Positions 8,479-27,768 of a stretch of 64,000 nt of DNA are shown piece after piece. Source of the DNA: Opitutaceae bacterium. Its GTDB lineage: Bacteria; Verrucomicrobiota; Verrucomicrobiia; Opitutales; Opitutaceae. The translations under genes were made by a program, and so were the position numbers. The first letter of the stretch is position 1, and every line of letters starts with the position of its first letter. The stretch spans positions 62,001-126,000 of the forward strand of contig JAQUYL010000001.1 in the NCBI GenBank assembly GCA_028691845.1. Direction: 5' to 3'. A model generated the notes under the pieces. The model was not told the DNA's origin. It worked only from the letters and a program-made list of their open reading frames with translations, and made no database searches.

Positions 8479-8952
8479 GTTATGCAGGCAGGGTTTTTAC
8501 CCACGCTTGGGTGGGCGAAGGACGCCCCTGTCATCCGGCCGGCCGGCCGGCGGAACTCAATCCGCCACAAATCGGCGCCACATCCCCTTTCCGGTTATCC
8601 GGAAACTTGTCATCTATTAAATGACAAACATCTTCGAGTGTCCATGCCTATTTGTCATTTAATAGATGACATTGGCTTGGGCGTCACAAACGTGCGGACG
8701 CGGCGTCGCCGATGATTTCTCCATTCAATGGATACCTGCGGGGAGCCTCCCGCCAGCGGGCCATGCCGTCGTGGGGCATCGCATGCGGCTGACCAGTCCC
8801 GACGGGGCTTTCCGCCGAAGTCTTTCCCAGCGGCAGTGTTGCATGGTCTTCGGCTTTGGCGCCGGACAAAGCGGTTACCGGAGTTCCACTGTTTTCGTTT
8901 GCGGCCCCCGGCGCACGGCATACAGAAGGCTTTTCTTCCACCCTCTCCGCCC
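8479..8952. other. Non-coding gap between hypF and hypC
   Basis: This 474-base gap interrupts an otherwise compact hyp cluster. It holds a small GC hairpin near 8511-8526 (GGGCG and CGCCC around a five-base loop), a run of CCGG repeats near 8538-8550, and the paired 21-bp hairpin repeat at 8607-8671. Frames crossing 8684-8941 show no known protein features. Inserted repeat sequence is the simplest reason for the gap. Confidence 0.45.
8607..8671. repeat. Paired 21-bp hairpin repeat, copy pair 1
   Basis: Two inverted copies of a 21-bp unit lie at 8607-8627 and 8652-8671, 24 bases apart. Each unit has arms TTGTCAT and ATGACAA around an AT-rich centre (CTATTAA in the left copy, its complement in the right). 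The right copy departs at its final base. The same pair layout recurs at 21918-21984 and 25925-25990, with a lone copy at 25476-25496. It is therefore a dispersed element; whether it is an operator, an RNA hairpin or a mobile-repeat end is not shown by sequence alone. Confidence 0.85.
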
Positions 8953-21917: not shown

Positions 21918-21984
21918 TTGTCATCTATTAAATGACAATTAGAGACCTGGCATTCTCGTGAATTTGTCATTTAATAGATGACAA
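21918..21984. repeat. Paired 21-bp hairpin repeat, copy pair 2
   Basis: Inverted copies at 21918-21938 and 21964-21984 are 25 bases apart, and here the match extends outward by CAAC on the left and GTTG on the right, giving 25-base inverted arms. Each unit again has TTGTCAT and ATGACAA arms. It lies between divergent genes, 92 bases from the DTW-gene start. Confidence 0.88.
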
Positions 21985-25475: not shown

Positions 25476-25496
25476 TTGTCATCTATTAAATGACAA
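25476..25496. repeat. Lone 21-bp hairpin repeat
   Basis: A single unit with TTGTCAT and ATGACAA arms around CTATTAA, extended by one T/A pair to 23 bases. It sits 37 bases beyond the stop of the small HTH gene, whose other side carries the paired copy at 25925-25990. The HTH gene is thus bracketed by the repeat. Confidence 0.88.
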
Positions 25497-25533
25497 ATGA
25501 TTGAAGCGCGCCCGAAGGAGGCGCAGGAACGAT

Positions 25534-25896
25534 TCAGGCGAGGTCGCGGCCGCGCTCCCGGGCCTGCAGCCAGGCCAGGAGCAGCAGTGCCCGCTCCGCG
25601 TCGGGATAGGCGCTCCGGGCAACAACAAGCAGGTGCAGTCGCTGCCGGCTGACGCCCAGAACCCGCGCGAGTTTCACCTTGTCGCCCCGCTTCGTCAAAT
25701 GGCGCGCCACCGCCTGGGCAAGTTCATTCCACAAAGGCGTATCGGAACCCGGCCGGGGCGTGGCCCCCCGCCGCTTCCTCCGGGACTCCTTGGTGTACTG
25801 ACGGGCGACTCTGGCTGACGCCTCCGCCGCTGCGACCAAGGGAGCGGTGAAGATCGAAAGCCGGCGCAACGCAGGATCGACAGCGGGATCAGTCAT
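25534..25896 (-). CDS. Small helix-turn-helix protein flanked by hairpin repeats
   Basis: A 120-residue cytoplasmic protein of no family I can name. Residues 33-45 are basic (QYTKESRRKRRG). Residues 53-110 look like a small helical DNA-binding domain: TPLWNELAQAVARHL, then KLARVLGVSRQRLHLLVVAR as a Cro/XRE-like helix-turn-helix, then PDAERALLLLAWLQ. The start is ATG 25896, just inside a TTG-started frame. The paired hairpin repeat begins 29 bases upstream of the start, a natural operator position, and a lone copy follows the stop. The gene may encode the protein that recognises the repeat; that is inference. Confidence 0.68.
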   Translation of the reverse strand: MTDPAVDPALRRLSIFTAPLVAAAEASARVARQYTKESRRKRRGATPRPGSDTPLWNELAQAVARHLTKRGDKVKLARVLGVSRQRLHLLVVARSAYPDAERALLLLAWLQARERGRDLA

Positions 25897-25924
25897 GACT
25901 TTCAACTAAGGCGTTTTTTGATCA

Positions 25925-25990
25925 TTGTCATCTATTAAATGACAAATATCCGGGGAGGATTCATGTCCGTTGTCATTTAATAGATGACAA
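25925..25990. repeat. Paired 21-bp hairpin repeat, copy pair 3
   Basis: Inverted copies at 25925-25945 and 25970-25990 are 24 bases apart, with the same arms as the pairs at 8607 and 21918. The element lies between the divergent HTH gene and malQ, immediately upstream of the HTH gene. A GGGGAGGAT stretch is in the spacer. Confidence 0.88.
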
Positions 25991-26208: not shown

Positions 26209-27768
26209 GTGCCTCTGCCCCACACCAAGCGCCAATCCTCCACGTCCGCGCCTATTTTCGACTGGCTCGATCATCGCGCCGCCGGCGTGCTCCTCCATCC
26301 GACTGCGCTGCCCGGCCCGCAGGGCATCGGTGTGCTCGATGGGAATCTGCTGAAATTCCTCGATCTGCTGCACGACGCCGGGTTCCAATACTGGCAACTC
26401 TGCCCGCTGGGCCCCACCGGATTCGGGGATTCGCCCTACCAGTGTTTTTCAGCCTTTGCCGGCAACCCGTACCTGGTGGACCTCGAGGCGCTCATTCCGT
26501 GGGGACTGCTGGACGCCGGAGACCTCGCACCGCTGCGCAGCCTGCCGGCTGAACGCGTCGACTTCGGCGAAATCTACCGGCGAAAATGGCCGCTGCTCGC
26601 GCAGGCCCATGCCCGCTTCAAGAAGCAGCGCCCCAGTTTGCCCTACGGCGATTTTGACACGTTTCGGCGCGAGCACGCCCACTGGCTGGAAGCCTATGCT
26701 TATTTCCGCGCGCTCAAGGAACATCACCAGAACGCCCCCTGGTGGGAGTGGCCCCATGATTTGCGCCACTACCGCACGGCCCTGCAATCACGCTTGCGAG
26801 GGCGGCTTGCCGACACCGCCGAGATGCACGCATTCACCCAATTCCTGTTTTTCGGGCAGTGGCAGGGCGCGCGCGAGGCCGCCCGGACCCGGGGCCTTTC
26901 GATCATCGGCGACATTCCCATCTTCGTCGCAGCCGACTCTGCCGATGCGTGGGCGCAACCGGAACTCTTCGAACTCAACGGAAAGACCGGCCGGCCGCTC
27001 GCGGTCGCCGGTGTGCCGCCCGATTACTTTTCCGCAGACGGCCAGCTCTGGGGCAATCCGCTTTACCGTTGGGACGTGCATCGCGCCGACGGTTTCGCCT
27101 GGTGGCAGGCGCGCTTGCGCGCCGCATTCGCGCTCTACGATGTGCTGCGCATCGATCACTTCCGCGGTTTCGACACCTACTGGCGCATACCTTGGCCGGC
27201 TGCCACCGCCCGAATCGGCGCGTGGACGCCGGGGCCCGGCTTGGAATTTTTCCGCACCATGCGCGCCGCCTTCCCCGCGGCCAGGATTATCGCCGAGGAT
27301 CTCGGGGAACTCATGGAGTCCGTCGTGCGATTGCGCGACGACACTGGGCTGCCAGGCATGACCGTCCTGCAATTCGCCTTTGGCGGCGGCAGTGCCAACA
27401 CCTATCTGCCGCACAATCACGTGCCGAACTCGGTCACCTACTCCGGCACCCACGACAACGACACGACGCTCGGCTGGTTTGCCTCGACCGACGAACGCAC
27501 CCGTGACCACGTGCGTCGCTATTTCCGTGTGAGCGGCGACGAAATACCGTGGGATCTGATCCGCGCGGCCTATCAGTCGGTCTCGCGCCTGGCTGTGGTA
27601 ACGTTGCCGGACATCCTTTCCCTCGGTTCAGTGGCGCGCTTCAATTCACCCGGCAAGTCCGAGGGCAACTGGCAATGGCGCTGCCACATGCGGCAGCTTG
27701 ATCAGCTACGGGCTGGCGGGACCGTTTCCTATCTGGCATCATTGGCTCAACTCTATGGACGCCATTAG
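26209..27768 (+). CDS. malQ: 4-alpha-glucanotransferase (amylomaltase)
   Basis: This cytoplasmic enzyme transfers alpha-1,4-glucan segments and serves maltose or glycogen metabolism. About 519 residues. GH77 features: RAAGVLLHPTALPGPQGIGV at the N-terminus, CPLGPTGFGDSPYQCFSAFA, the nucleophile region YDVLRIDHFRGFDTYWRIP, the acid/base region RIIAEDLGELMESV, and YSGTHDNDTTLGWF. A GTG at 26209 is chosen as start because the frame before it (from 25984) begins inside the hairpin repeat and has no domain content. No other maltose genes adjoin it. Confidence 0.93.
   Translation: MPLPHTKRQSSTSAPIFDWLDHRAAGVLLHPTALPGPQGIGVLDGNLLKFLDLLHDAGFQYWQLCPLGPTGFGDSPYQCFSAFAGNPYLVDLEALIPWGLLDAGDLAPLRSLPAERVDFGEIYRRKWPLLAQAHARFKKQRPSLPYGDFDTFRREHAHWLEAYAYFRALKEHHQNAPWWEWPHDLRHYRTALQSRLRGRLADTAEMHAFTQFLFFGQWQGAREAARTRGLSIIGDIPIFVAADSADAWAQPELFELNGKTGRPLAVAGVPPDYFSADGQLWGNPLYRWDVHRADGFAWWQARLRAAFALYDVLRIDHFRGFDTYWRIPWPAATARIGAWTPGPGLEFFRTMRAAFPAARIIAEDLGELMESVVRLRDDTGLPGMTVLQFAFGGGSANTYLPHNHVPNSVTYSGTHDNDTTLGWFASTDERTRDHVRRYFRVSGDEIPWDLIRAAYQSVSRLAVVTLPDILSLGSVARFNSPGKSEGNWQWRCHMRQLDQLRAGGTVSYLASLAQLYGRH

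Follow-up and report, generated by a model that had tools for sequence, protein, structure and literature searches.

A small XRE-type HTH gene of Opitutaceae and its bracketing palindromes as a putative co-evolving, REPtron-like set

What links a small helix-turn-helix (HTH) gene to the short palindromic repeat that stands on both sides of it and recurs elsewhere in the same genome? The question is raised by a locus in the window, as the whole 64,000-nucleotide stretch of an Opitutaceae contig that was analysed is called here. The preliminary description of the locus had offered two readings, one in which the HTH protein regulates a regulon marked by the repeat and one in which gene and repeats form a mobile unit whose shorter copies are scattered. 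We followed the protein, its palindromes and their genomic positions through the family Opitutaceae.

The locus in the window

The 21-bp unit TTGTCATCTATTAAATGACAA stands singly after the HTH stop codon and as an inverted pair ahead of the start, 28 bp from the ATG at 25896, and two further inverted pairs of it are found in the window, with members at 8607/8652 and 21918/21964 (Table 1). This is the arrangement first described, correctly, and the initial observation understated the case. Units of 19-21 bp number seven in the window, and the 21-mer was absent from all of 100 dinucleotide shuffles. Because every unit is quasi-palindromic in its own right, one or two central positions alone decide whether it counts as 'direct' or 'inverted'. 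The spacers of the pairs in the window's genome are alike in length and almost wholly different in sequence. Taken together, the members of the upstream pair make a 22-bp perfect inverted repeat with a single-strand DNA fold of -20.9 kcal/mol (z -8.9). A scan of the HTH locus for sigma-70 promoters and terminators found none, and a search of RNA families returned no match.

Table 1. Features of the HTH locus and of the scattered pairs, in window positions
Feature	Position	Strand	Basis
Single 21-bp palindromic unit, 3' of the HTH stop (38 bp past)	25476..25496	+	Sequence match
HTH gene, predicted XRE/lambda-repressor-like, recognition helix VSRQRLHLL	25534..25905	-	ORF, fold, XRE/Cro-type matches, family alignments
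Palindromic unit, HTH-proximal member of upstream pair, starting 28 bp before the ATG	25925..25945	+	Sequence match
24-bp spacer of upstream pair, sequence unrelated to the genome's other spacers	25946..25969	.	Spacer comparison
Palindromic unit, outer member of upstream pair	25970..25990	-	Sequence match
Scattered pair, centres 45 bp apart, between two tandem genes (locus L007)	8607..8672	.	Sequence match
Scattered pair, centres 46 bp apart, between two divergent genes (locus L009)	21918..21984	.	Sequence match

The HTH gene is flanked by genes for a gamma-glutamyltranspeptidase and a 4-alpha-glucanotransferase, and its reading frame encodes 123 amino acids from a TTG or 120 from the ATG. The longest reading frame of the glucanotransferase begins at an ATG within the outer palindrome (25984); a later start, for example at 26209, is more likely. 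At locus L158, a malQ homologue is found ~2 kb from a distant relative of the HTH gene, a window-like neighbourhood that may be coincidence.

In the AlphaFold2 model of the protein, a long N-terminal helix precedes a four-helix domain modelled with high confidence (helices 54-66, 72-80, 84-93 and 100-114), from which an XRE/lambda-repressor-like fold is predicted. Foldseek searches pointed to XRE/HipB/SinR/CapH-type folds (best E 0.25; VIA Z up to 8), with matches that are weak to middling and cover the HTH part of the protein, residues 47-117. A sequence search of solved structures gave no significant match, NCBIfam and PADLOC yielded none for the protein, and no catalytic or enzymatic domain was detected in it. 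Against the Pfam YdaS model the window protein scores 14 bits, below the curated cut-off of 30, and 46 of 61 family members match it weakly; membership in YdaS or HTH_3 was rejected, the scores being under the curated cut-offs.

A profile search recovered the HTH family from 130 of 252 Opitutaceae genomes, mostly fragmented metagenome-assembled genomes (MAGs) with assemblies that break at repeats, at up to 8 copies per genome. All but a few of 80 named loci belong to Opitutaceae or Opitutia MAGs, one being labelled Akkermansiaceae, and a phylum-wide sample contained just two weak matches outside Opitutaceae. Viral contigs, plasmids and phages held no relative of the protein. Searches of open-access papers yielded no description of this HTH/palindrome family, and we know of no system that matches the HTH gene together with its palindromes.

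Palindrome arms and recognition helices across the family

A palindrome of the form N8-AWT-N8, located within 500 bp of the gene and with 8 of 9 arm positions paired, accompanies 74 of 89 distinct family genes, 59 of which have it on both sides. The idea that the HTH gene is always flanked by the repeat holds for most of the 89, since relaxed criteria recovered the unit, asymmetric forms included, at most of the remaining genes; it fails for ~5, which still have no recognisable unit. Close to HTH genes, up to 500 bp away, palindromes centred on AWT reach a density of 1.60 per kb, ~70 times the 0.023 per kb measured at distances of more than 1.5 kb. Their arms vary from gene to gene (TGTCATCTA, TGTCACGTA, TGTCACCTA, TGTCAACTA, TGTAACGTA, TTTCACGTA, ATGTTCGTA, TGTAGTCTA and TGACACTTA); a later set of 15 loci, 13 of them with units, contributed TTTGCCGTA, TCTAGCGTA and TTTTGCGTA, and in several of these cases a new helix was accompanied by new arms. 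Around one HTH clade (L150, L151 and L170) the units are asymmetric, being composed of two different half-sites, AGTATACTA and TGTCAACTA, and at L096 and L097 the HTH gene is surrounded by arrays of at least four units spaced ~66-90 bp apart.

The variation of the arms is shared by the two sides of a gene. Upstream and downstream half-sites of the same gene differ on average at 0.14 of 9 positions, compared with 2.09 between genes, a result reached in 0 of 10,000 permutations. With the rest of the protein controlled for, unit distance is related to distance in the recognition helix (partial r 0.50; 0 of 2000 permutations); with the helix controlled for, the partial r for the rest of the protein is 0.06. 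The relation persists (r 0.54) in pairs whose identity outside the helix is <40%, kinship among the sequences being a factor that inflates tests of this kind. For example, the helix HRARIGEYF goes with ATGTTCGTA, PPQRVH with TTTCAC, SRQRLHLL with TGTCATCTA, and DRQ or HRQ combined with VN-YF goes with TGTCAACTA. Judged from these sequences, the palindrome arms follow the recognition helix and not the remainder of the protein.

Palindrome and gene are also associated at the level of genomes. Those with paired units have the HTH gene more often (29 of 34) than the others (72 of 166; P = 7e-6), and the proposition that the repeat never occurs without an HTH homologue was borne out only in part, the exceptions being a few genomes with units and no HTH match (G015, G108, G201, G071 and G127). 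In G015, which represents another genus, the exact unit type of the window occurs ~27 times (L033, L040 and L066) with no HTH gene detected; the gene may have been lost or may fall in an assembly gap. An HTH clade that adjoins a dus-like gene (L047, L110, L111, L115, L162 and L173) stays put in several genomes, across genera, while its palindrome arms change. Because some HTH genes are fixed in this way at one locus across genera, the gene itself need not be mobile.

Scattered units, insertion and concerted change

Counted over the whole genome of the window (2.95 Mb in 37 contigs), the window unit occurs at ~24 sites within two mismatches, against 0 for the reversed control, and the units are mostly paired, with centres 43-46 bp apart. 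Three HTH genes are present in this genome, and the units on both sides of each are of a separate type (TGTCAT in the window, TGTCACC on C15 and TGTCAAC on C13) with its own scattered copies. Where the HTH gene has a pair the scattered copies tend to be pairs, and the third type is mostly single in both respects. Another genome, G105, possesses eight HTH genes, seven of them with units, and the arms differ between most of these.

The positions of the scattered units bear on the regulon reading, under which the HTH protein would be a transcription factor whose targets are marked by the palindrome. In the window's genome, with gene calls near the sites made by a GC-position heuristic, the inspected clusters of scattered units fall into 26 tandem, 15 convergent and 4 divergent gaps, with a few possibly intragenic; convergent exceeds divergent (two-sided P = 0.019), and there is no promoter preference. 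Such avoidance of divergent promoters speaks against a regulon. Most HTH genes, moreover, have a unit downstream as well, one pair lies within a coding region, and pairs come and go among congeners. The reading draws on the XRE fold, which is typical of repressors, on the units that begin 28 bp before the HTH start codon, which suggest autorepression, and on the four type-1 clusters that stand between divergent genes. We regard a palindrome-marked regulon as quite improbable, and this part of the preliminary description was left unsupported.

Comparison of orthologous places, made among congeners of genera other than that of the window's genome, indicates how units and cassettes come to differ in occupancy. 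The loci L098 and L105, whose proteins are 81% identical, share DNA homology from outer unit to outer unit only, with unrelated flanks; the gene adjoining the L098 cassette on its downstream side is kept in the genus, and at none of 19 congener loci is there an HTH gene or unit nearby. In the genus g39, five genomes have a pair that is read through in frame within a gene for a DEAD_2/Helicase_C_2 protein, and three lack it at the orthologous place. The in-frame pair (L253 in G079, L257 in G172, L258 in G158 and L259 in G038) adds ~40 residues in a linker. Cassettes and pairs, being present or absent at orthologous sites, appear from these alignments to behave like insertions, a filled/empty comparison alone being unable to tell insertion from deletion. 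No target-site duplication was seen at the compared sites, where the filled/empty alignment is inexact. Furthermore, the orthologous helicase-gene pair and the HTH-flanking units of G172 both carry a CTT arm or mixed forms, while G079 has CGT, and in G172 a scattered site has kept step with its protein.

The pairs themselves carry further information. Their spacing is narrow in each genome (43-46, 42-46 or 47-48 bp between centres), and their number ranges from 0 to 21 per genome. Spacers are unrelated in G000, the window's genome, and in G172, and have a common sequence in G059 and G039, where the spacer likeness of scattered pairs in unrelated flanks amounts to 0.71 and 0.82, respectively, versus 0.53-0.55 after shuffling. 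Narrow spacing, with spacers that are free in some genomes and copied in others, suggests both selection on spacing and recent copying. The window's genome also contains heterotypic pairs with normal spacing (C22:101982/102025, C29:47881/47921 and C24:247276/247322) and one hybrid unit (C1:60763) made of half-sites of two types (locus labels for these pairs and the unit: L329, L330, L026 and L345). Spacers with hardly any kinship, together with the heterotypic pairs, are in this genome as compatible with selected binding sites as with old copies.

Such sites could belong to a chromosome-organising or nucleoid-associated protein that bridges or marks many fixed positions, with selection acting on binding rather than mobility and specificity drifting together with the sites. 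Fixed spacing around free spacer sequence, the heterotypic pairs and hybrid unit, the concerted change of an orthologous scattered site and the retention of HTH genes at one locus in some clades are all in its favour. However, the HTH family is missing from about half of the genomes, a genome may hold up to eight paralogues with different palindromes, pair numbers run from 0 to 21, and both the copied spacers in unrelated flanks and the cassette-bounded homology speak against it; we consider a role of this kind unlikely, while giving it some weight. The mobile-unit reading, with the gene and repeats as a unit, scattered shorter copies and the protein as recognition factor, fits the co-variation, the cassette-bounded homology and the filled and empty orthologous sites, so that the preliminary description was upheld in part.

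Proposed explanation and comparison with known systems

The best explanation, which we favour with moderate confidence, is that the small XRE-type HTH protein and its 19-bp palindrome form a co-evolving, REPtron-like set in which the protein acts in recognition. The protein would bind the palindrome as a dimer, and each pair of units would hold two dimers, set about four helical turns apart by the fixed spacing. Where the upstream units lie makes it likely that the HTH gene is autoregulated, and from that pair its protein may act as a repressor of the gene. Together with the units on its two sides, the gene would constitute a cassette of roughly 0.5-0.6 kb; gene-less pairs or single units would be shortened derivatives of it, dispersed between genes in the way that REPINs are under a RAYT. 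In this process the HTH protein would serve as a sequence-specific recognition factor, and the cutting and joining would fall to an enzyme from outside the cassette, presumably one of the host's own or a trans-acting transposase. No recombinase was found in or adjoining the HTH cassette, and no partner gene recurs beside unlinked HTH loci outside syntenic groups. An insertion sequence or MITE with its own transposase was discarded on two grounds, the lack of a recurring gene beside HTH loci and of an enzymatic domain in the HTH protein. Presence or absence at orthologous places is a trait that such elements and the present units have in common.

More tentatively, the set may represent a class of mobile or self-spreading elements whose one dedicated protein, a stand-alone HTH factor, defines the element through its palindrome and borrows host enzymes, with dozens of orthogonal specificities in one family. 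If this is right, REP-type repeats need no dedicated transposase and can originate and last around a simple DNA-binding protein. That would have a bearing on the open question of the spread of palindromic repeats lacking a transposase, and a large class of Opitutaceae hypothetical proteins and repeats would be explained. Mobility aside, the family amounts to a natural library in which XRE proteins come with their matching 8-bp half-sites, and a recognition code for this fold is readable from genomes.

The closest parallel is provided by REPtrons, in which RAYT (TnpA-REP) genes are flanked by REPs and REPINs are scattered (PMC3116915, PMC3733652, PMC8266576). Both have a single gene with a short palindrome on either side, a co-evolving protein and repeat, intergenic inverted doublets with spacers similar in length and varied in sequence, several orthogonal sets per genome and, now and then, copies that lie in frame inside genes, those for repair proteins or helicases among them. 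The flanked gene here, however, encodes an XRE HTH protein of ~120 amino acids with no Y1 domain, whereas the REPtron protein is an HUH tyrosine transposase, and the palindrome is of the duplex-operator type with an AWT centre, no GTAG tag and no linked RAYT. In the window's genome the flank consensus before TGTCAT is G-R-N-N-A-N-T, and the GTAG/GYRG tetranucleotide is absent. Filing the set under REPtrons was rejected, as the flanked gene is not a RAYT, the GTAG tag is missing and the RAYT genes of these genomes have no unit.

A further rival has RAYT (Y1) transposases mobilising ordinary REPs or REPINs in trans and makes the HTH gene a passenger or regulator; GTAG-type REPs and intragenic ones are on record for Opitutus terrae (PMC3733652), and most genomes tested have some Y1_Tnp. 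We hold this rival to be highly improbable: 30 Y1_Tnp loci were without a palindrome of the cognate type (2 unrelated matches in 84.8 kb), G059 and G100, both incomplete MAGs, have pairs and no Y1_Tnp match, and the arms track the HTH recognition helix, with no GTAG tag seen.

CGTC-type REPs and Rickettsia palindromic elements likewise have no linked transposase and insert in frame into coding genes (PMC3733652), features shared with the present palindromes; no dedicated protein is reported for them, whereas here the repeat brackets an HTH gene. A Rickettsia-type reading and that of a restriction controller were considered and dropped, and a CRISPR-like array was rejected, the pairs being mostly inverted and the units at most a few per site. 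XRE/Cro-type autorepressors and YdaS-like HTH proteins (PF15943, PF01381) resemble the family in fold, recognition helix and a palindromic operator near the start codon, but the units described here are also found downstream and at tens of other sites, and the proteins score below the Pfam cut-offs. Scattered palindromes bound by one protein are familiar from ParB/parS, Noc, MatP and similar site-marking proteins; the Opitutaceae family differs from these in its many paralogues with different palindromes, its patchy distribution, its variable site number and its fold.
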